This document shows positions 5,066 through 18,565 of a stretch of DNA of 55,655 nt, one piece after another (position 1 is the first letter of the stretch; the number at the start of each line of letters is the position of its first letter). Below the pieces are notes generated by a model that saw only the letters and a list, made by a program, of their open reading frames with translations, had not been told where the DNA came from and did no database searches. The stretch spans positions 169,826 to 225,480 of the forward strand of contig JAAVDX010000018.1 in NCBI GenBank assembly GCA_014801585.1, written 5' to 3'. A program made the translations under genes and the position numbers. Source of the DNA: Bacteroides sp. Its GTDB lineage: Bacteria > Bacteroidota > Bacteroidia > Bacteroidales > Muribaculaceae.

Positions 5066-6040
5066 TTACTGAACAAACCACTTATAAGGTGTGTCTTCAC
5101 CTTGAAGTGCTTCTGCGACACCGAAAGCAAAGTCGGTTGCATTAACACTTCTTGATAGGAAACGATCGATGTATGCGTTCTTGTTAGCCTCCGTAAGAAG
5201 GTTGTAAAAAGCCCACATTGTGATTTTGGTGCCATTGCCGATTCCGAAATTAGGGTCGCTTACAAAATTTCGGACAGCAGAATTTGCTGCCTGGTCTCCA
5301 AGTGTTAATTCCGGAAGACTAAGAGCTTGTCGTTGAGCATTTGGTAGAGCTTCATAAAGTCTCATACGCCCAATGACGTGAGTGAAGTCCTCTATGGTCA
5401 TTGATGTTTGACCAAGTATTTCCAGTTTCTGCTTTGCCGCTTCATGATTGTAGCTTGTAAAGAGGCTACAGGCGGCTGAGTAAATTTCGCTTTCTGAAGA
5501 TGCCTCAAGCTTGTCAATGAATGCGTCACCGAAAACGCAGAGATTTGAGCAGACCTTTACTCTTTCCCCACAAAACACCTTGAATTTCTCTTGCGAAGGG
5601 CGTGATCCAAGATTCTCATTATTCAGAGCACGTACACCACCTACTACTAGGGCGGTCTCATTGCCGTTAATGGAATCAATGATTGAGATTGCGATACAGA
5701 AGCACATTCTCTGATAGTAGAGTGTCTTTTCGCTGTCGAGCAGGTCGGCAGGACGTTTATGTAACGCGTCTGGAGTTCTGCCATTTACAGCATGAGATAC
5801 TCGGATTTCAGGGGCTTTTACCATATTATTGCCGAATACCGTATGAGCTGCGGCAGAGACAGCTTGTATGAATAGCTGATGGGAAGTAGTAAGTTCATTA
5901 TTAGCCCATGTAGGCACTATGCACTTCGATTGTAGGTCTTGAAGGGAAATTGCGTTTGAATTTCCTTCCAAGAAGTTGGGATGTGGGTCCGGATTTGTGA
6001 TGATACCGCTATTGGGAATCATCAATGAATTGTTTGCCAT
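5066..6040 (-). CDS. DUF3871 family protein
   Basis: 324 aa from the ATG at 6040. DPHPNFLEGNS, SLQDLQSKCIVP and NELTTSHQLFI, followed by FGNNMVKAPEIRVSH and GRTPDALHKRP, match the N-terminal half of DUF3871 as I know it, a family found on Bacteroidetes mobile elements. The C-terminus reads WAFYNLLTEANK...IDRFLSRSVNATDF, also family-like and similar in style to DUF932 phage proteins. The molecular role is not established. It heads the recombination block and is followed by a terminator. Confidence 0.85.
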   Translation of the reverse strand: MANNSLMIPNSGIITNPDPHPNFLEGNSNAISLQDLQSKCIVPTWANNELTTSHQLFIQAVSAAAHTVFGNNMVKAPEIRVSHAVNGRTPDALHKRPADLLDSEKTLYYQRMCFCIAISIIDSINGNETALVVGGVRALNNENLGSRPSQEKFKVFCGERVKVCSNLCVFGDAFIDKLEASSESEIYSAACSLFTSYNHEAAKQKLEILGQTSMTIEDFTHVIGRMRLYEALPNAQRQALSLPELTLGDQAANSAVRNFVSDPNFGIGNGTKITMWAFYNLLTEANKNAYIDRFLSRSVNATDFAFGVAEALQGEDTPYKWFVQ

Positions 6041-6198
6041 TTTGAAATGGATTTACTAGGGTTAATATTCTCGTTTAGAAAGAGAAAAAGCCAAATGACA
6101 GAATTATATTAGTTTCTTCATATCATTTAGCTTCTTCCATACTTTTAGCAGACCTAATAAAGCCTCACTAAGTAGGATTGCGACAGTGAGTTTTTGCT

Positions 6199-6372
6199 TC
6201 ACGCCGCCATAGGTTGTTCAGGCTGGGGAGTAGGATCCTCAACCACGATTGTTGTTGATGTGGCTTTACGGCTGCCACGGATTTTGTTAAAGAGATCAGC
6301 CACCATAGTGGTAGCGATCAAAATTTCGCTTACGTTACCCACAAGGGCAACGACTTTCCATACTTTGTTCAT
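6199..6372 (-). CDS. Small hydrophobic protein (57 aa)
   Basis: An ATG at 6372 opens a 57-codon frame ending in TGA at 6199. The N-terminal 27 residues are hydrophobic (MNKVWKVVALVGNVSEILIA), consistent with one membrane helix. A basic patch (NKIRGSRK) and an acidic, proline-rich tail (VVEDPTPQPEQPMAA) follow. The plus-strand frame over the same bases is a shadow. It lies 158 nt upstream of the DUF3871 gene. No family recognised. Confidence 0.5.
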   Translation of the reverse strand: MNKVWKVVALVGNVSEILIATTMVADLFNKIRGSRKATSTTIVVEDPTPQPEQPMAA

Positions 6373-6388
6373 TTTGATTGTGTTGTAA

Positions 6389-6707
6389 TTATTATTCGAT
6401 TATTTTTTCAGTTTTCTTCATATATAAGGCATTGACCACCGGCGTGAACGTAATAAAAAATAGCCCTGACTTCACAGCCAAGACCACCACAATATAAATT
6501 CAAAGATAATATACATCGATAATTAGCATATGTACCATTAAGATACTCCTTCATCTATAAGGATATAACCCCTTCTCAATATCCAAAAATATTAGAAACG
6601 GGATCAATAACCATTAAAATTTGATGAGATGCTCTGAAGCATAAGGTAGAAGTTGTGCCTTTGGATTATTTTCACTAACTTTGCGTTCAAATCACAATTC
6701 TTGAATA
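6389..6707. other. Divergent intergenic region
   Basis: 319 nt of AT-rich DNA between the leftward mobile module and the rightward defence-like island. Only the -7 box upstream of the Xre gene could be picked out. No tRNA or att-like repeat seen. Confidence 0.5.
6676..6683 (+). promoter_or_regulatory. -7 box for the Xre-headed island
   Basis: TAACTTTG matches TAnnTTTG and lies 24 nt before the ATG of the regulator. Only GTTG is present near the expected -33 position, so the promoter may be weak or regulated. Confidence 0.5.
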
Positions 6708-6923
6708 ATGGAAGATTTAAATCGTCTTAAAATAGTGCTTGTCGAAAAGAAAAAAACAAGCAAATGGTTAGCCGAAGAATTGGGCAAGAACCCCTCCACG
6801 GTCTCCAAGTGGTGTACCAACGTCAGCCAACCCGATCTTCAAACTCTTCACAATATTGCAACTCTTCTTAATGTTGATGTAAGAATGCTTATAGTGCCGA
6901 ATGAGATTATAATTTGTCAATAA
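6708..6923 (+). CDS. Xre/Cro-type helix-turn-helix regulator
   Basis: 71 aa. Residues 17-55 form a typical helix-turn-helix: TSKWLAEELGKNPSTVSKW, then NVSQPDLQTLHNIATLLNVD. The length and single domain resemble controller proteins of restriction-modification and other defence loci. It is the first gene of a three-gene plus-strand set and probably regulates it; a direct link is inference from position. Confidence 0.85.
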   Translation: MEDLNRLKIVLVEKKKTSKWLAEELGKNPSTVSKWCTNVSQPDLQTLHNIATLLNVDVRMLIVPNEIIICQ

Positions 6924-7007
6924 ATTAGCTTCTACTATTTAATATTACCGTAATCTTATATAAGCTGCTAAAGTTTGGATTTATTATAATCAGAAAACCA
7001 ATTAATT

Positions 7008-7916
7008 ATGAGTAATCCCTTCAATAATATTGATTTAAAAGCATTTGTAAATCAATTTCCGCCTGAATTTATTGCCGAGCAAAATAGGAAGATGCTTGAA
7101 GAAACGGATGAGGACTATAATAATTTTATTGACAATCTTAAAGTTGGCAAATGTTATCTATGTGGTAAAGATATTGAAGATACATCAGGAGACCCTTGCC
7201 TCCATTGGCTTATAAATGAAAAAATCAAAAAAAAGCGTTTAAAGAATTTACTAAATTCTGAAATTGGCTTTTTTCGATTATATTCATACTTAGTGTGGTG
7301 TGCCAATGCAGATAAACCATTTGTAAATATAAATGACTTGTCTTGTGATATTCAACCAAATCGTCACTATGAATGTACAATTAAATACAAGATTTGGGAG
7401 TGGTCCATTTCAATTTCAAAATCGGATTATTCTGGTCACGGAAATTCATCACATGGCAGCAAACCTCATTTTCATCTACAAATAATCAAAAATGGACAAC
7501 AATTTTTAAATTTTGGTGATTGTCATATTTTGTTTACTAAAAGTGATTTATGGAATTTTGCAATGATTGAGCAAGACTTAATGACCTTTGATCCAGGTTA
7601 TGGCGCGGGACTAGAAGCTCTGCAAGAGAACAAAATCCAAGAACAGATTCCAGAATGGCTTTCACAATCAAGTGATGATGAAAATGCTCCTTTTAGGACA
7701 CAAACGCTTATTGACACTCGAAACATGGATTCTAATGTTTTCAATGAAATAATCAGGCTTCATAATGAAACAAAGATGGTCGTACCTGCTATTATCGAAA
7801 TGCTAAATCGGGAGAAAGGTTATGATATTAAATACATGACTCAGACCATACCGAATTCTTTTTTTGAGAAACAGCATAGGACGCAACGTGGGAACTCAAA
7901 TACTAACAAGTCTTGA
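7008..7916 (+). CDS. Unrecognised Cys/His-rich protein, possible defence component
   Basis: 302 aa. Residues about 48-65 carry CYLC and then DPCLHW, a possible zinc-binding CxxC...CxxW/H site. Around residues 146-160, HGNSSHGSKPHFHLQI has five histidines and ends in HxH next to a beta-strand, reminiscent of HIT-type or other metal/nucleotide sites, but no family can be named. The C-terminal part is helical and polar. It sits between the regulator and the ATPase-nuclease gene with gaps of about 85 and 120 nt. Strong AT bias relative to the core genes suggests transfer. Confidence 0.6.
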   Translation: MSNPFNNIDLKAFVNQFPPEFIAEQNRKMLEETDEDYNNFIDNLKVGKCYLCGKDIEDTSGDPCLHWLINEKIKKKRLKNLLNSEIGFFRLYSYLVWCANADKPFVNINDLSCDIQPNRHYECTIKYKIWEWSISISKSDYSGHGNSSHGSKPHFHLQIIKNGQQFLNFGDCHILFTKSDLWNFAMIEQDLMTFDPGYGAGLEALQENKIQEQIPEWLSQSSDDENAPFRTQTLIDTRNMDSNVFNEIIRLHNETKMVVPAIIEMLNREKGYDIKYMTQTIPNSFFEKQHRTQRGNSNTNKS

Positions 7917-8038
7917 TTGCCAACAACGGATATGCGTTAATAAATAACTGGAATATGAACTGTTTTAATGGATAGATCGTGATCCCTAGTTTATATAGAT
8001 TCTCCAACTACATACGAAAGAATCAATAATTCAAACCA

Positions 8039-11000
8039 ATGACTGAGCAAATTAATAAAACGCCGGAGCAGTTAGCTCTCGAAGAAAAAGACCGGAGAAC
8101 CAATCTAAAAAAATTCTGCAACTCAATTCTCCAGAAAATTGGAGAACTTAACAATTCTAGCGGAGACCGTGCTATTTGGGAACTCTGCCAGAATGCTCGT
8201 GACCAATCGGACTGTGCTGAAATCAAAATTACATTAGATGACACGAGTCTAACATTTGCTCATAAGGGAAATCCTTTTAATGAAGATTCTCTACTATCAT
8301 TAGTTAAGCAAGTAAGTTCAGAAGAAAAAGAAAATGCAGAAACAGCCGGTCAATTTGGAACCGGCTTCGTGACCACACATTACTTCAGTCGTAAATTTTA
8401 TCTCAATGGCTCATTCAGAACTTCTACCGGAAAAGTATTTGACCTTAATCGTTTCGAGATAGACCGTTCGGAAGACGATGTAAACAATTTTATCGATATA
8501 ATGGATAATCAAATCCAGTCGGTATATAAACTTTTAAGTAATCCTGAATCTCAGCTTCGGGAATGGACTGAACTAATATATCCACTGACCGCTGAGACGA
8601 AAGAGATTGCACTTCGCGCTATGCACGCTTGCGAGAAGATGTTACCTGAAGTTCTGGTACTCAATGACAGAATAAAAACTGTAACACTAGAGTATAAATT
8701 AAATAATGTCCACAAAAACATTGTTTTTACCAAGGGACGCAGCTACCAAGAAGAAGATCTTAATATTCAAGAAATCCTACTTTGTGAAGATAGTAAATCT
8801 CCTTCTACTATAAGTGTATATTTTCTTCAGACCGATTGTAAGCGTATCATTCTACCTCTAGAAAATGAGAGATACGTAAAAAGTCACGAGGATATAGCAA
8901 AGCTATTCATATGGTTCCCATTATTGGGTACCGAGGAATGGGGGACGAATTTCATATATCACTCATCGTTCTATCCACTAGAAAAGAGGAATGGTATTGT
9001 GCTACCGTGTGAGAACTCTAATCAAAAGAAAGCCTTCGAGCATAACGTTGCAGAACTTGAGAAAATGAACTCCATCCTGTTTGATTTTCTCAAAACCCAT
9101 TCTGCAAAGATTGACAACTGTATCGAACTTGCAAAAATAAACTTTCCGGAATATAATGATGATGAGAAGACGCAAAATTTCTATAGAATTCAACAAAAGT
9201 CTTGGACATCTGTTTTTCGCACTCTTCCATTGATTGACACACCTGCCGGACGAAAAAGCCTTGACGAAGGTGTCAAAATACCCAACCAAGACATCTGTCT
9301 CTTCTTTGCAGATGAAGAAATGCGTGATAAATACTTTGACGCGTTCTACCATTTTGCATCTACAGTTACAACTCTTCCTCTAAAAGAGGAATGTCTCAGA
9401 TGGGCAAGCATAATCCACCAATGGAATTTGCCTGAGATACAACAGTATGAGATTTCGCTGGCTGAAGTGGCAAAAAAAGCCTCAGCTGAAGGCGACCTTA
9501 TTGAATTACACCATTTTCTTGAGATAATCAAGAAAATAAATCAGATTACGCTGTTTAAGGATATGCCATTGATTCCTAACAGATCTGGTATTTTGAAAAC
9601 GACGGAAGACCTCCGGGATGGAAAAGACATTCCTAAAGAGCTTTATAGACGCGCTTTGCCCATCTGCCGCGAAGATATGGACAAGTTAGTTCATCCTGAC
9701 TTCGCTGACATATACAAACTCAACGAATACACTCGCGAGCATTTACGCTCTGCTGTCTATAGTGTTAATGATAATCTAAAATTATCTACTCTAAAACTAG
9801 GAAAATGCTTCTCGGAGGAATACACAACGGCACTCCGAAGTTTCGTTTCCATATATCCGGTAGAAAATCCAGATAGTCATCGCCATCAGATAATGCAAGC
9901 TCTTTCAAAACTGAAAGGTTTTGAGTATAAAGTATGTTGTATTCCTCGAAGTGAAGAAAAGGATACAAAAGATTATTACCGTTCAGCATTCATCTTTTTG
10001 ATGGAGAACGAGTTGTTAGGAATAACAATAGAAGCGCAGCGAGACCCCAAATGGCTGACAACACATAAGGAGGATCTTCTGGATTTAATATCTAAGGTCG
10101 GACTTATTAACGACAAGGACGACTCGTTACGCCTTCTCGGTATCAATGGGTATGCAGTTACCCCTAATCAAGAAGGACAACTCTGCAAGCTGGAAGATCT
10201 TCGGATTCGTGAAAATAATATATCAGACGAACTCTCTGATTTGTACACTAACGTGCTTCATCAAGACCTTCGTAAAACTTGGATTGATGCATCATTTGTA
10301 CAGTTTATCTCTCCTGAGAAAACAGATTCAGCTAAGAATCTAGCGTTGGAAATAGAGAGAGTTCTTATGGAAGAGTATGAGACAAGCCATGAAGTAAGCA
10401 AATATATCATCGACATCATCCAAAAAATTGAATCAAAGACGGACGAGGCTTCTTTATGGAAAGAATGGTTCAAGCGCATTGACGAAAAGAAGGCTGACCT
10501 CAATTGGCATATGGTACCCGAGGAAAGCAAATCAAATTTCTATCGTCTAATGAAGGTCGCTAATGACAAAGACTTGTTGGAAGATTTGGCAGAAATGTCG
10601 GAAAATACCGACATTCTTAGGAAATTCAAGGACTTTTTGGCCAAGCATCAGCAAGAAGAGGCTGAGTTCAAGTTTAAGCATGATTTAGGCAAACATATTG
10701 AAAATATGATTCGCCTTAAGTTAAATGAAGAACTATGCACACGTGTAAACGTAACTACTACCATCGAAGATCAGCAAGGAGGACAAGATATCGTTGTCCA
10801 ATTAGATGGCAAGGATGTTTATTTCATTGAGTGTAAGGCTAAATGGAATTTCTCTGAACCTGCCCACATGAGTAAACTCCAGATACGGAAAGCTTGTGAC
10901 GAAAAGGGGCATTATGCCCTATGTGGAGTAGATCTGACATCATTTAAAGGTCTGTCAAATGGCGTATTTCCTTTAATAGATCAACTTGAACAGCACATAC

Positions 11001-11218
11001 ATATTCATTTCGATGTAGCTGAAAAGCTTGCAACCGTATCAGAACATCTTTTTGCCATAGATGAAGAATCAGACGAGAACCGAATGACTATTTCTGCGGA
11101 CTATCGGTCAAACATACCCAAGTCTGTTTTCGTCAACAACATTGGTTTTGATAGTTTAATTGATGCAATTATCAATCGCATCCACACTTTCGAGGTTTCT
11201 GATTTGGATATGGATTAA
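8039..11218 (+). CDS. GHKL (Hsp90/sacsin-like) ATPase fused to a PD-(D/E)XK nuclease
   Basis: 1059 aa. The N-terminus has a Bergerat ATP-binding fold: N-box IWELCQNARDQ (E48, N52, D55), a variant second motif FAHKGNPF (residues 73-80; the usual DxGxG aspartate is replaced by His, as in some prokaryotic sacsin-like ATPases), and the glycine lid GQFGTGF (104-110). About 750 mostly helical residues follow. Near the C-terminus, GGQDIVVQL (D917) and YFIECKAKW (E931, K933) fit a PD-(D/E)XK nuclease core of the DUF3883/Mrr-like sort. ATP-driven sensing coupled to DNA cleavage is a common defence design; that role is inferred. Confidence 0.8.
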   Translation: MTEQINKTPEQLALEEKDRRTNLKKFCNSILQKIGELNNSSGDRAIWELCQNARDQSDCAEIKITLDDTSLTFAHKGNPFNEDSLLSLVKQVSSEEKENAETAGQFGTGFVTTHYFSRKFYLNGSFRTSTGKVFDLNRFEIDRSEDDVNNFIDIMDNQIQSVYKLLSNPESQLREWTELIYPLTAETKEIALRAMHACEKMLPEVLVLNDRIKTVTLEYKLNNVHKNIVFTKGRSYQEEDLNIQEILLCEDSKSPSTISVYFLQTDCKRIILPLENERYVKSHEDIAKLFIWFPLLGTEEWGTNFIYHSSFYPLEKRNGIVLPCENSNQKKAFEHNVAELEKMNSILFDFLKTHSAKIDNCIELAKINFPEYNDDEKTQNFYRIQQKSWTSVFRTLPLIDTPAGRKSLDEGVKIPNQDICLFFADEEMRDKYFDAFYHFASTVTTLPLKEECLRWASIIHQWNLPEIQQYEISLAEVAKKASAEGDLIELHHFLEIIKKINQITLFKDMPLIPNRSGILKTTEDLRDGKDIPKELYRRALPICREDMDKLVHPDFADIYKLNEYTREHLRSAVYSVNDNLKLSTLKLGKCFSEEYTTALRSFVSIYPVENPDSHRHQIMQALSKLKGFEYKVCCIPRSEEKDTKDYYRSAFIFLMENELLGITIEAQRDPKWLTTHKEDLLDLISKVGLINDKDDSLRLLGINGYAVTPNQEGQLCKLEDLRIRENNISDELSDLYTNVLHQDLRKTWIDASFVQFISPEKTDSAKNLALEIERVLMEEYETSHEVSKYIIDIIQKIESKTDEASLWKEWFKRIDEKKADLNWHMVPEESKSNFYRLMKVANDKDLLEDLAEMSENTDILRKFKDFLAKHQQEEAEFKFKHDLGKHIENMIRLKLNEELCTRVNVTTTIEDQQGGQDIVVQLDGKDVYFIECKAKWNFSEPAHMSKLQIRKACDEKGHYALCGVDLTSFKGLSNGVFPLIDQLEQHIHIHFDVAEKLATVSEHLFAIDEESDENRMTISADYRSNIPKSVFVNNIGFDSLIDAIINRIHTFEVSDLDMD

Positions 11219-11333
11219 ACTAAATCAAGATAGTCCCAGATAGATAATATTATTTCCATATTTGGAACATCAGCCGATATTCCACTGACTTACAATATAT
11301 TTCACATTCGAAGAAGTCAAGTAATACATATAA

Positions 11334-11390
11334 AAATCAATAATAAAAATGGTGCAACTCATTGAGTTGCACCATTTTTATTATTGATTT
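11334..11390. terminator. 28-bp perfect inverted repeat (bidirectional terminator)
   Basis: Arms 11334-11361 and 11363-11390 are perfect reverse complements around one unpaired base. The GC core is ggtgcaactca/tgagttgcacc, flanked by AT-only runs that supply U-tracts in either direction. It lies 116 nt after the ATPase-nuclease gene. The rest of 11219-11590 shows nothing else. Confidence 0.8.
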
Positions 11391-11590: not shown

Positions 11591-11806
11591 ATGTCGGAAG
11601 AACAGATGAACAGTTATCGACTCACGTCGATGGATGAACCCGGCGATGAACGTATGGCACAGATCATGCGGGAGGTTGCCGAAGATGCACGCGAAAGCAC
11701 TCGCCGAGCAGCTGCGCATGTGACTGCAAGTATCGAAGCTGCCTCGCAAGCGGCCCAAGCGAAATGGGGAGATACCATAAATAGAATTAAGAATGGCAAC
11801 TACTGA
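11591..11806 (+). CDS. Antitoxin-like partner of the zeta toxin
   Basis: 71 aa, acidic and alanine-rich (VAEDARESTRRAAAHVTASI), predicted all helical. Its last 14 nt overlap the start of the zeta-toxin reading frame, the usual arrangement in Bacteroidetes zeta loci, where a short helical protein precedes the kinase. An antitoxin role is inferred from this order and overlap. Confidence 0.65.
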   Translation: MSEEQMNSYRLTSMDEPGDERMAQIMREVAEDARESTRRAAAHVTASIEAASQAAQAKWGDTINRIKNGNY

Positions 11807-12394
11807 TCATCGTCCCGTGTTGATTGTGATTGCCGGTCCAAATGGGTCGGGCAAAACTTCCGTAACGTCTAAGATTCTGCATCACGAGTGGCTGGAAGAT
11901 TCGGAATATATCAATCCCGACAATGTGGCTCGTGATGTTTTCGGTGATTGGAATGACCGTGAGGCAGTTCTCAAAGCGGCAAACTATTGTAATAACTGGC
12001 GTGAGAAGTGTCTTATCGAAAGAAAGAGCCATATTTTTGAGACTGTTATGTCTGAAGCGATAAGGTTGATTATATAATACGTGCAAAGATGGCCGGATTT
12101 TTTATCCGATTATTTTTTGTTTCAACTATATCACCTACTATAAATGCTAAGCGCGTTGCCAATCGTGTATTAAACGGTGGCCATGATGTCCCAATTACGA
12201 AGATCATTTCTCGATACGATAAGTCGATAGCCAACTGTCAACTTGTTGCTCCCATAGTAGATCGACTGTATGTTTACGACAACTCGGTAGAGGATTCAGA
12301 TGCTCGAATTTTATTCCGTATGAGCAATGGGGAGGTTGTAAAATCTTATACTACGAATGTACCGGACTGGGCTAAAATCATACTTCCTAAGTAA
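11793..12394 (+). pseudogene. Zeta toxin, broken by a frameshift
   Basis: The first part (11793-12077, 94 codons) has the Walker A GPNGSGKT and the zeta-type segment YINPDNVARDVFGDW. It runs to IFETVMSE and then leaves frame. The second part, in another frame, reads KVDYIIRAKMAGFFIRLFF and continues to VPDWAKIILPK with all family landmarks (GGHDVPITKIISRY, YVYDNSVEDSDA). The frames meet at about 12050-12065, so a net one-base loss, or two-base gain, restores a protein of about 200 aa, normal for the family. Zeta toxins phosphorylate UDP-N-acetylated sugars or related nucleotides. The break may be real inactivation or a sequencing error. Confidence 0.85.
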
Positions 12395-15099: not shown

Positions 15100-15170
15100 C
15101 TTACTTAAGATATTTTTAGATTAATTTTATATATTCTTGTATTTGCAGTTAAATAAATGGAATCGAAGAG

Positions 15171-15998
15171 TTACTTAGACGATCTAAGCTGTCGGGCCGT
15201 TTCTACCGCTTCATTGTAACCTTCACAAATTTGGTATTTAGCGAAAATGTGATTCCTATGCAGTATTCTGAATTTTTTAAGATCCTCTATTTGATCTTTT
15301 GAAAGCTTGGAATCTCCTGCATACAAATCTCCATCCTTTTCGGTTATCGGACCTAAAGAAATCAGATAAATAAGTTTATCTTTTTCAATCTCTGCCTTTG
15401 GAGTTAATGACACATTATTAAGTTTGGATGTTGGGGACCAATCACTAATACCGTTTACCCCTCCTTTTTTTGTCCATGGGACAGTCCATTTTCGCCCTAA
15501 TTCATAGATTCTCGGCCCAATCCATTCTACGTTTGATGCTGACTCTCCTTCCTTTACCCCAACGTAACTTACACTAAGTCCAGATCTCATTGGGTCGATT
15601 TCTATGATAGAAATGCCGGTTCCATCTTTGGTGACACATATTTTGTATTTGATATTTCCTCCCGAATAAAACCTAGCTTCCTCACTAAATTTTTCTATGT
15701 CTGTGAAAGTTCCAAGACTAAACCATAAAATATTTCCATTTTTATCTGACATCCTATCTGCAGAAGTACTTTTTACCTCTGCTTTATAATCTGTTATCGG
15801 GTTTTCGATAACCGCTGTACTATCATAGTAGGAAGGAATGGCAACGTAGGTATAGTCTATCTTCAGTGGAGCTAATTCTTCCGATTTAACCCACATTCTA
15901 TAAGCAATCACGCTGCCTATGATTCCAACAAGAACCCCGACAAAGAAAACTATCCAACCGTTTAATCTTTTATTTCTTATGATGCTATGAATTTTCAA
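15171..15998 (-). CDS. Membrane-anchored protein, intact paralogue
   Basis: 275 aa. An N-terminal signal anchor (GWIVFFVGVLVGIIGSVIAY) is followed by a soluble domain on the outer face. The C-terminal 78 residues are nearly identical to the next gene upstream (about five differences), while the middle is more diverged. No family recognised. It is 71 nt upstream of the SHOCT-like gene. Confidence 0.65.
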   Translation of the reverse strand: MKIHSIIRNKRLNGWIVFFVGVLVGIIGSVIAYRMWVKSEELAPLKIDYTYVAIPSYYDSTAVIENPITDYKAEVKSTSADRMSDKNGNILWFSLGTFTDIEKFSEEARFYSGGNIKYKICVTKDGTGISIIEIDPMRSGLSVSYVGVKEGESASNVEWIGPRIYELGRKWTVPWTKKGGVNGISDWSPTSKLNNVSLTPKAEIEKDKLIYLISLGPITEKDGDLYAGDSKLSKDQIEDLKKFRILHRNHIFAKYQICEGYNEAVETARQLRSSK

Positions 15999-16028
15999 TT
16001 TAATATTCTGACCAAAGTATTAGATGTT

Positions 16029-16858
16029 TTACTCAGAAGATCTCAGCTGCCGGGCCGTTTCTACCGCTTCGTTGTAACCTTCACAAATTTGGTATTTAGC
16101 GAAAATGTGATTCCTATGCAGTATTCTGAATTTTTTAAGATCCTCTATTTGATCTTCTGACAACTTGGAATCGCCTGCATACAAATCTCTATCATTTTCG
16201 GTTATCGGACCTAAAGAAATCAGATAAAGAAGCTTATCTTTCTCAATCTCAGCCTTTGGAGTTAATGTCACATTATTAATTCTGGCTGTAGGAGCCCAAT
16301 CACTAACGCCCGATATTTCGGATTTATCATTCCATGGAATTGCCCATTTTCTTCCTAATTCATATATTATTGGCCCAACCCATTTGATACTCTGTAAGGA
16401 TTCACCCTCCTTAATACTAATTAAACTTGTATTGATTCCAGAGTAAAACGGCTCAATCTCTAGTATAGATATGCTTGTTCCATCCTTAGTAGGACATATT
16501 TTGTATTTGATCTTACCTCCAGAATAAAACTTAGCTGCCTCACTAAATTTTTCTATGTCTGTGAAAGTTCCAATACTAAACCATAAAATATTCCCTTTTT
16601 ATCTGACATTCTATCTGCAGAAGTACTTTTTACCTCTCCTTTATAATTTGTTATTGGATTTTCGATAACCGCTGTCTGATCATAGTTGGAAGGAATGGCA
16701 ACGTAGGTATAGTCTATCTTCAGTGGAGCTAATTCTTCCGATTTAACCCACATTCTATAAACAATCACGCTGCCTATGATTCCAACAAGAATCATGACAA
16801 AGGACTTGATCCACCACTTTTCGCGCTTATTTCTCATTATGCTAAGAAATTTGGACAT
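16029..16858 (-). pseudogene. Frameshifted paralogue of the 275-aa membrane-anchored protein
   Basis: The first 92 or so codons (MSKFLSIMRNKREKWWIKSF...) match the paralogue at 15171-15998. At about 16595-16605 the minus-strand run AAAAAGGGAATATT replaces AAAAATGGAAATATT, one base shorter, and the frame shifts to an early stop at 16553. In the restored frame the protein continues without stops (ILWFSIGTFTDIEKFSE...) to 16029, about 276 aa. The single lesion in a homopolymer could be a recent mutation, phase variation or a sequencing error. Confidence 0.8.
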
Positions 16859-16927
16859 TCACATAGGCCTGCCTGATTCCCTGGGGGAGGCGTTGAGATT
16901 AGGATAAAAGAAAAGAGGGGAATTCAT
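16859..16927 (-). other. Possible 22-aa leader peptide, stop-start coupled to the next gene
   Basis: ATG at 16927 opens a 22-codon frame starting MNSPLFFYPNL and containing PRESGR. Its TGA (16861-16859) is followed at once by the ATG of the next gene (16858). The same MNSPLFFYPNL...PRESGR stretch occurs in leader copy 3 at 18230, where it runs in frame into the lipoprotein gene. Conservation may simply reflect the repeat, so coding is unproven. Confidence 0.35.
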
Positions 16928-17245
16928 CGCGCCTCTATCATAGCTAAACAGGCCCGCCAAGGCCTCGGACTGAATGATCTGGGAGGTTGGAATAAACTGC
17001 CCCTCTGGATTGTGTATGCGTAGATGCGGTAATACCGCTTCAGCTGATACTACAATACAGAAAGAGCGTCTAATCTTACTCACTCTCAGTCCTTTCAAAT
17101 TGGCGGTTCGTTTAGCTGAGAAAGAAAGCTTGACACTTTTCTTCACTCTACGGAATTTCTCCTCCGCTTGAGTATCGCAAAGTTAATCAATTTTTTCGAT
17201 TAGACGCTCATATTAACATATTTTAAGGATTAAGACAGTTATTAT
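16861..17245 (-). repeat. Promoter/leader repeat, copy 2
   Basis: Aligns with copy 3 end to end. 16895-16943 is identical to 18198-18246 (49 nt), and 17116-17173 is identical to 18428-18485 (58 nt). Dyad arms are gagcgtctaatc (17064-17075) and gattagacgctc (17198-17209). Read leftwards it holds a TAACTTTG box and then about 320 nt of leader before the gene starting at 16858. A 95-codon frame with a GTG start (17146) reads MKKSVKLSF in all three copies but then drifts out of frame in copies 1 and 3, so it is not called as a gene. 17246-17426 shows nothing further. Confidence 0.9.
17178..17209 (-). promoter_or_regulatory. Putative promoter of leader repeat copy 2
   Basis: TAACTTTG on the minus strand at 17185-17178. 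The dyad arm 17198-17209 covers the -33 position. The other arm (17064-17075) lies about 135 bp away, close to 13 helical turns. Confidence 0.55.
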
Positions 17246-17426
17246 CATCTCTGTGAGTCAGATTCTTTTACATATACCGGTTTATCGATTCAGATTTTCT
17301 GTTAGTAATGTTTCATCTTATATCGCCTGAGAATTTATCTGAGGGAGTGTATACTGTATATGTTAAGAATCAGATCATTCAAGATTTAGAGAGATTCAAA
17401 GGAGGTTCGGAGAGAGTTGGGGAGAG

Positions 17427-18140
17427 TCAGAGGTTGACGGTTGTGTAGCGGTGGCGGTACTCCTGCATGAAGGTGGGTTCATCGGGGTTGAGACATATGG
17501 CTCGGTCGATCTTGACGGCTTTGCCGTTGTTAATGAACTCGGCTCCTGAACACTCTTTTGCTATGGGTTTCCATGCTCCGGTCTTGCAGTTGTATTGCCA
17601 TACGTAGGTGCCTTCCACCCAACCGTTACTGTTGCGCATCTCTGTCATTATGACCGTCAGCACACCATTATTCTCTACAATCCCATCCACATTCATCTCT
17701 TCATCGATCATGGATGTTTTATTCAAGGAAATTGTCTGCTGTGAATCAGTGTCACTATCATAGGCTACCATTTTGTTATCATATCCACTTTCATTAGCAG
17801 CCCATTGAGAGTAGAAAATCTTTCTACCGTCTGCGTACAATAAGCGTGCTCCTGAATTTTCCACAGCCTGCAACTTGTAGGCATATCTGTTATCAGCGAG
17901 ATCAACTTCGGCAACAAGTTCTTCGGGCTCAGGTACGGGGGTGTTGGAGGTATTTGTCGTTATAGTGGCATCATACACTGCCGGTCCTACTATAGAATCG
18001 TCTAAACTTTCAGTAACGGCAGCCTTTTCACTATCCGAACTATTGCATGAAGCTACTGTGCTGCCTCCTGCTACCAGTAGAGAGCAAGCGCACAATATCA
18101 TGAACGTGGAAGTGGGGGAAAGAAGTTTATTGAGTTTCAT
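17427..18140 (-). CDS. Lipoprotein of unknown function
   Basis: 237 aa from the ATG at 18140 (MKLNKLLSPTSTFMILCACS); the frame is open another 30 codons into the leader repeat, but the signal peptide fixes the start. A lipobox-like VASC lies at about residue 32. An acidic linker leads to a beta-rich domain with WEGTYVWQYN-type strands. Leader copy 3 sits directly upstream, so this is the clearest gene served by the cassette. Not recognised as a known family. Confidence 0.6.
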   Translation of the reverse strand: MKLNKLLSPTSTFMILCACSLLVAGGSTVASCNSSDSEKAAVTESLDDSIVGPAVYDATITTNTSNTPVPEPEELVAEVDLADNRYAYKLQAVENSGARLLYADGRKIFYSQWAANESGYDNKMVAYDSDTDSQQTISLNKTSMIDEEMNVDGIVENNGVLTVIMTEMRNSNGWVEGTYVWQYNCKTGAWKPIAKECSGAEFINNGKAVKIDRAICLNPDEPTFMQEYRHRYTTVNL

Positions 18141-18164
18141 TGTATGCGGCGTGTTAAGTGTGGT

Positions 18165-18565
18165 TAAGAGCCTTCCCGATTCCCTGGGGCAGTTGATGAG
18201 ATTAGGATAAAAGAAAAGAGGGGAATTCATCGCGCCTCTATCATAGTTACATCAGGCTCGCCAAAGCCTACACGCTGAATGACAGGGAGGTTCGAATAAA
18301 CTGCCCCTCTGCGTTTGTCTATGCTATGGCACGACCCGTCGGGGCCGCCTGGTAGGTGCGACAAAAACAGAAAGAGCGCCTAATCTTGCTCCTCTCAGCG
18401 TGATTCTTATTTGGCGATTAGATGTAACTGAGAAAGAAAGCTTGACACTTTTCTTCACTCTACGGAATTTCTCCTCCGCTTGAGTGTCGCAAAGTTAATC
18501 AATTTTTATGGATCAGGCGCTCGTTTTAACATATTTTAAGAGTTTAGGCAGTTTCACACTATTTC
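18165..18565 (-). repeat. Promoter/leader repeat, copy 3
   Basis: Same architecture as copy 2, with the 49-nt and 58-nt identical blocks. Dyad arms are gagcgcctaatc (18374-18385) and gatcaggcgctc (18511-18522): the T-A pair of copies 1 and 2 has become C-G on both arms (covariation), and the one remaining non-Watson-Crick position is G.U in a leftward transcript. The downstream end abuts the lipoprotein start at 18140. Confidence 0.9.
18490..18522 (-). promoter_or_regulatory. Putative promoter of leader repeat copy 3
   Basis: TAACTTTG on the minus strand at 18497-18490, with the dyad arm over the -33 position as in the other copies. A second minus-strand TAACTTTG at 18663-18656 could be an upstream promoter. 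Confidence 0.55.

Follow-up and report, generated by a model that had tools for sequence, protein, structure and literature searches.

A predicted single-protein TmtA (Tiamat) defence locus, possibly in an exchangeable cassette slot

The genes at positions 6708–11218 of the window (the whole 55,655-nucleotide stretch of DNA analysed here) probably constitute an anti-phage cassette in which a single protein of the TmtA (Tiamat) family does the work. We propose that this protein is a putative ATP-switched nuclease with a C-terminal NOV_C domain, that it is repressed by an Xre regulator and that it is exchanged as cargo between two sequence handles. A preliminary description of this DNA had taken its regulator, unrecognised middle gene and ATPase-nuclease fusion for a candidate defence island. 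The prediction of defence cargo and of a GHKL ATPase–PD-(D/E)XK fusion stands, but the three genes do not form one conserved set. The locus is better described as a predicted defence locus of an already known kind, single-protein and possibly lodged in an exchangeable cassette slot. What appeared to be a new system now falls within Tiamat, whose mechanism is listed as unknown and which gains two sets of candidate residues, E48, N52 and D55 for the ATPase and D917, E931 and K933 for the nuclease.

The three open reading frames all lie on the plus strand and, as first described, in an AT-rich stretch (G+C of 37.1% for 6708–11218 vs 44.9% for the window). The features of the locus are as follows.

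5997..6707, no strand assigned: left handle, the leader/promoter region of the Xre gene, common to the window and locus L099 (93% block)
6708..6923, plus strand: Xre/Cro-type regulator, 71 aa (HTH_3, Pfam, E 1.1e-8)
7008..7916, plus strand: 302-aa Cys/His protein without known family, a near-orphan ORF with one clear relative (L071:9453-10349)
8039..11218, plus strand: TmtA-type protein, 1059 aa, with GHKL ATPase, helical middle and PD-(D/E)XK domain (PADLOC PDLC03967; modelled)
8039..8743, plus strand: N-terminal GHKL ATPase domain of TmtA, approximately residues 1–235
10622..11215, plus strand: C-terminal NOV_C-like PD-(D/E)XK domain of TmtA, residues 862–1059 (D917, E931, K933)
11261..11324, plus strand: right handle, a 64-nt element of constant length found behind other cargo too (sequence comparison)
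11334..11390, no strand assigned: perfect inverted repeat with 28-nt arms, an intrinsic-terminator-type hairpin (folding; stems differ elsewhere)

The mobile-type flanks of the preliminary description are borne out on the left, where a recombination module encodes a resolvase, a Sak single-strand annealing protein, a PDDEXK_1 protein and a DUF3871 protein; on the right, nothing but a zeta-toxin-like fragment was recognised. This zeta-toxin/AAA-like gene (11793–12394) is apparently split into two frames of 94 and 101 aa. Positions 15156–18553 contain duplicated stretches, ~858 and 1312 bp apart and 79–98% identical, with related short pieces at 1–166. No direct repeats of at least 20 nt were found at both cassette ends.

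The TmtA-type protein and its two domains

The PADLOC TmtA profile PDLC03967 spans the whole large protein, aligning residues 11–1048 with profile positions 5–1060 of 1063 (E 1.7e-211). In the nomenclature of defence systems, TmtA is the Tiamat protein (Millman et al. 2022). The main gene, though not the three-gene set, can accordingly be assigned to an already named system, which the preliminary description had been unable to do. Two other PADLOC TmtA profiles, 1486 and 1782 positions long, match only stretches within residues 13–121, and by these profile matches the large protein is one TmtA branch of ~1060 aa, seen here in Bacteroidota.

The structure model of the large protein (pLDDT 86.6, pTM 0.62) contains a large helical middle and an N-terminus with a sacsin/Hsp90-type GHKL fold, for which structure searches (Foldseek, VIA-align 2) retrieved sacsin SR1 and Hsp90. 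Consistent with this, NCBIfam NF047352, a GHKL/sacsin-type ATPase domain, matches above its cut-off. Residues E48, N52, D55, G104, G107, T108, G109 and F110 are identical in 70/70 full-length sequences, the window copy included, as are D917, E931 and K933; the patterns used to retrieve these relatives covered parts of the ATPase motifs and nothing of the nuclease motif. Both the ATPase with its glycine lid (104–110) and the C-terminal core had been predicted in the preliminary description, and both readings hold. Classic GHKL proteins carry an Asp at the G1-box position. In all 70 TmtA family members this position is a His (H75, codon 8261–8263), so ATP use by the GHKL domain is likely but not certain.

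The sole Pfam match of the large protein is NOV_C, which is found in 70/70 family members at E ≤ 0.01 (best 8.7e-10); the window copy alone scores E 0.0026 and 18.2 bits, below the curated cut-off of 22.1 bits. In the model, the C-terminal elements run in the order helix 857–902, strands 907–910, 918–922 and 925–935, helix 946–954 and strand 959–965, with ten-residue pLDDT means over these core elements of about 61 to 87. This arrangement, a D...ExK core in alpha-beta-beta-beta-alpha-beta order, places the domain in the PD-(D/E)XK superfamily, as a predicted nuclease. The structure searches (Foldseek, VIA-align 2) returned no match for the nuclease part among the matches listed, all of which cover residues 1–480; as these residues filled the match list, this result is uninformative. 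A search of the PDB by sequence gave matches at E 0.63 and 0.84 only for the single TmtA sequence and none for the profile.

By analogy with VcSduA, the nearest worked example, we read TmtA as a single ATP-switched nuclease. ATP binding by the sacsin/Hsp90-like GHKL domain would probably close a TmtA dimer, some phage-derived DNA or protein would set off the switch, and the switch would in turn license the C-terminal NOV_C-type domain to cut DNA.

The middle gene and the alternatives to a single-protein system

The 302-aa protein contains the motifs C49-x2-C52 and C64-x-H66 and a five-His segment, and is as unrecognised as first described: Pfam, PADLOC, NCBIfam and PHROGs gave no family that passed its curated cut-off or reached E ≤ 0.001, the nearest being Rad50_zn_hook, which covers the CxxC stretch at E 0.015. 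By sequence, the PDB yielded one chance-level match (E 0.32), and a single-sequence model was uninformative (pLDDT 41.8). Among 247 family genomes the protein is present in one, its own, and no relatives were found in genome contigs, viral contigs, plasmids or phages. Of 393 order-level genomes, 47 gave some match at E ≤ 1, and the only clear relative besides the own genome is in G466 (L071:9453-10349; E 1.1e-54, 36–38% identity). We took the weak order-level matches, at E 0.0013 and above, as chance; judging by gene neighbourhood, four of the six that were inspected are NusG-like proteins and the other two are copies of a single protein type. The existence of a relative with this level of identity indicates that the middle ORF is a real gene. 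The relative retains C49, C52, C64 and H66 as well as four of the five His residues (H144, H154, H156 and H173), and the conserved Cys and His residues suggest that the protein binds metal.

The preliminary description treated the three genes as a unit, and a true two- or three-component system, in which Xre controls both TmtA and a partner, the 302-aa protein, that might be a metal-binding sensor, inhibitor or nuclease, is the alternative that fares best. All three genes are on the same strand with gaps of 84 bp (Xre to middle gene) and 122 bp (middle gene to tmtA), no terminator-like site was found on the plus strand between 6923 and 11218, and the Cys/His residues persist in the single relative. 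Against this, a two-sequence profile search detected relatives of the 302-aa protein in 0/80 TmtA loci, 70 of which include at least 1.5 kb upstream of tmtA. None is near the closest tmtA copies either, a contig-end fragment of 59–60% identity in L018/L106 and broken pieces of 74–77% in G061, and the relative in G466 lies in a different context with no tmtA in the 10.7 kb seen. The middle gene also differs from tmtA in G+C content (33.2% vs 38.7%). In three loci (L099, G052:C12 and G080:C13) an Xre gene of the same type stands directly ahead of a TmtA-type gene, leaving no room for a middle gene. A conserved three-gene set is ruled out by its absence from the 80 TmtA loci and from beside the closest tmtA copies, and we consider a multi-component system unlikely. 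The 302-aa protein is probably separate or optional cargo, and in the proposed single-protein cassette it would be a second, rare cargo gene.

TmtA itself is patchily distributed, with matches at E ≤ 0.001 in 10/247 family and 17/393 order genomes (own genome included), several of which rest on the ATPase region only. A single-protein search of viral contigs found none, and 3 of 72,556 plasmid records matched with 25–39% identity over 10–67% of the protein, one of them, from Priestia, being annotated as a short ATP-binding protein.

TmtA in the window could instead be an accessory of a restriction-modification (R-M) system, involved in DNA looping or serving as an additional nuclease, and not defend the cell on its own. 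Type I R-M homologues, detected with seeds from L113, occur in 22/80 loci of TmtA relatives (L113 itself counted), and in L113 the type I R-M operon itself contains tmtA, flanked by the genes that supplied the HsdS and HsdR seeds; L117, L120 and L127 resemble this arrangement by their sequence starts. Of 99 immediate same-strand tmtA neighbours in 79 loci, a single type I restriction profile accounts for up to 10 and a type I specificity profile for up to 9, as raw counts among the best 25 of 451 families. The proximity of type I R-M genes to tmtA also speaks for the defence reading of TmtA itself. In addition, an earlier paper describes paraMORC GHKL proteins in R-M operons (PMC2292703). However, the same seeds detect no R-M gene around the remaining 58/80 relatives, although contig ends truncate some loci. 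By eye, the sequences of L015 and L016 suggest solo tmtA genes, while tmtA in L017 seems to have a Dcm-like methyltransferase and further accessory genes in its vicinity. In the window, no homologue of the L113 seeds was found in the first 20 kb and no methyltransferase among the 13 genes scanned with Pfam, which lie up to 12.4 kb and between 19 and 20.8 kb; within this range the locus does not qualify as an R-M operon. An R-M accessory role for TmtA is hence improbable, slightly more so than a multi-component system. It is more improbable still that the locus is decayed or serves a housekeeping role without defence function: the broken close copy in G061 and the patchy presence would fit, but the 1059-aa frame is intact with all invariant residues, and a patchy distribution in a mobile context is what one would expect of cargo rather than of a housekeeping gene.

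The Xre leader gene and the ends of the proposed cassette

Relatives of the Xre gene at E ≤ 1e-15 occur in 90/247 family genomes, with several copies in some. We fetched 21 of these places, 20 mostly from the top of the list and one later, a sample that is neither complete nor random, and scanned 20 after leaving out L209, in which the next gene ends at the contig end. A PADLOC match at E ≤ 1e-5 was obtained for the gene behind Xre in 15/20 loci and for the one before it in 4/20 (Fisher p 0.0012), a control whose worth is lowered by several preceding ORFs being short mechanical calls and possibly not genes. Among the cargo are R-M genes of types I, II and III, BrxA, GajA, SspE/HEC-06-like proteins and an HKD-Snf2 type, as well as a gene matching mainly WYL regulators (L205) and the candidate family PDC-M15A (L199). 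Loci lacking a next-gene defence match are L193, L198, L203, L206 and L208, and in L203 and L208 the gene after Xre is on the opposite strand. Because preceding genes match defence profiles in L195, L196, L203 and L211, some of these slots appear to lie within larger defence islands. In L195, BrxA and further BREX-like genes follow the Xre gene, and a SAVED-HNH effector-like gene (CBASS-type) lies just before it. The window's own genome holds two further Xre copies, one ahead of a type I methyltransferase. Judged by these neighbouring sequences, the Xre gene is a general leader of many different defence operons, and its product probably represses a promoter shared by xre and the cargo behind it.

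Comparison of the window with L099 bears on the left end of the proposed cassette. Window positions 5997–6838 and L099:215-1054 form an 842-bp block of 93% identity that ends inside the Xre gene; 6572–6731 are identical, and the shared sequence breaks off sharply within xre. Past the break, and 15 bp beyond the end of xre, L099 has another tmtA, with 31% identity to that of the window. The two loci also have in common a conserved 64-nt element on the right (window 11261–11324, L099:5753-5816), further copies of which are found in L193 (two, behind other cargo), L215, L216, L217, L237 and L239. It reads TTTGGAACA ... GARGAAGTSAARTRA, is intergenic and of constant length, is followed by a terminator hairpin and lies either downstream of cargo genes or in divergent orientation to Xre genes. 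It may be an attachment site, a small RNA or a 3' UTR; a coding tail was also considered, but in-frame stops occur in some copies. A pattern scan gave 7 exact matches in 6/198 family genomes, with none for the reversed control pattern among the matches listed. Four of the seven (window, G137 twice and G182) are near an Xre of the same type and no such Xre was found within the surrounding 3 to 8.9 kb of the other three, a count that is not unbiased as the pattern derives partly from Xre loci. The element had no match in viral contigs and nothing at the gathering score in Rfam.

The perfect inverted repeat that was first thought to close the set does exist (28-nt arms at 11334–11361 and 11363–11390, 1-nt spacer), beginning 115 bp past the last gene and hence outside 6708–11218. 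It folds at -36.3 kcal/mol (z -12), and an Rfam search over it gave one chance-level match (E 0.14), far under the gathering score. A hairpin follows the element in 9/9 distinct copies folded (-19.9 to -36.8 kcal/mol), with differing stem sequences. As one of these nine hairpins, the repeat is best read as a terminator rather than as a mobile-element end or island boundary.

Both handles were seen together in three loci only, the window, L099 and L193, each with different cargo. A tentative reading, which we regard as possible rather than probable, is that Bacteroidota share an exchangeable defence-cassette slot with a fixed promoter-Xre left end and a right end of 64-nt element and terminator, between which unrelated defence genes are swapped. 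The cargo would lie between the left handle, made up of the promoter and the 5' half of xre, and the right handle, and seems to have been exchanged by recombination through these handles. The coding 5' half of xre would serve as recombination homology, placing each new cargo at once under the same promoter and repressor. If this is true, the Xre family could help to find new defence genes in Bacteroidota, since whatever stands behind it would be likely defence cargo.

Comparison with known systems

Small Xre controllers of R-M operons are a known class. The window Xre type resembles them in standing immediately before R-M genes and other defence genes, but its subfamily leads unrelated kinds of defence and the sequence shared with L099 breaks inside the gene.

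The C-terminal domain of TmtA belongs to the same family as that of the NO VEIN proteins, NOV_C being named after the plant protein. In a metagenome survey, as far as its available text goes, 'Tiamat' matches in plant samples lay on plant sequence (PMC12409356), as would be expected if the plant NO VEIN proteins were built in the same way.

A 2008 paper already described GHKL proteins that carry restriction-type nuclease domains, as well as GHKL proteins found in R-M contexts (PMC2292703). Like VcSduA and paraMORC3, the window protein combines an N-terminal GHKL ATPase and a C-terminal, here putative, PD-(D/E)XK nuclease in a single chain (PMC12137116, PMC2292703; available portions). For VcSduA, a GHKL-DUF4263 protein, defence is reported to be lost with a variant in the ATPase motif and likewise with one in the nuclease; the authors infer that it acts on the phage directly and that the host stays viable (PMC12137116). 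The VcSduA nuclease is, however, DUF4263, whereas the window protein matches NOV_C, is longer and has a large helical middle; it matched no SduA profile in PADLOC. Membership of Shedu (SduA, GHKL type) fails on the DUF4263 nuclease, judged by sequence profile only, and the working analogy stands.

The closest relation is to Tiamat, a defence system whose mechanism three sources list as unknown or poorly understood (PMC12926258, PMC10740426, PMC10855318). Two others report it from Pseudomonas, at genomic-island hotspots, and as a rare system from archaea (PMC12629846, PMC13321033). No description of the mechanism of Tiamat or TmtA was found in the literature searched. The window protein departs from the two longer TmtA profiles, matching them only near its N-terminus, but it shares with Tiamat a full-length TmtA profile match, a GHKL ATPase protein and the lack of a conserved partner in 80 loci.
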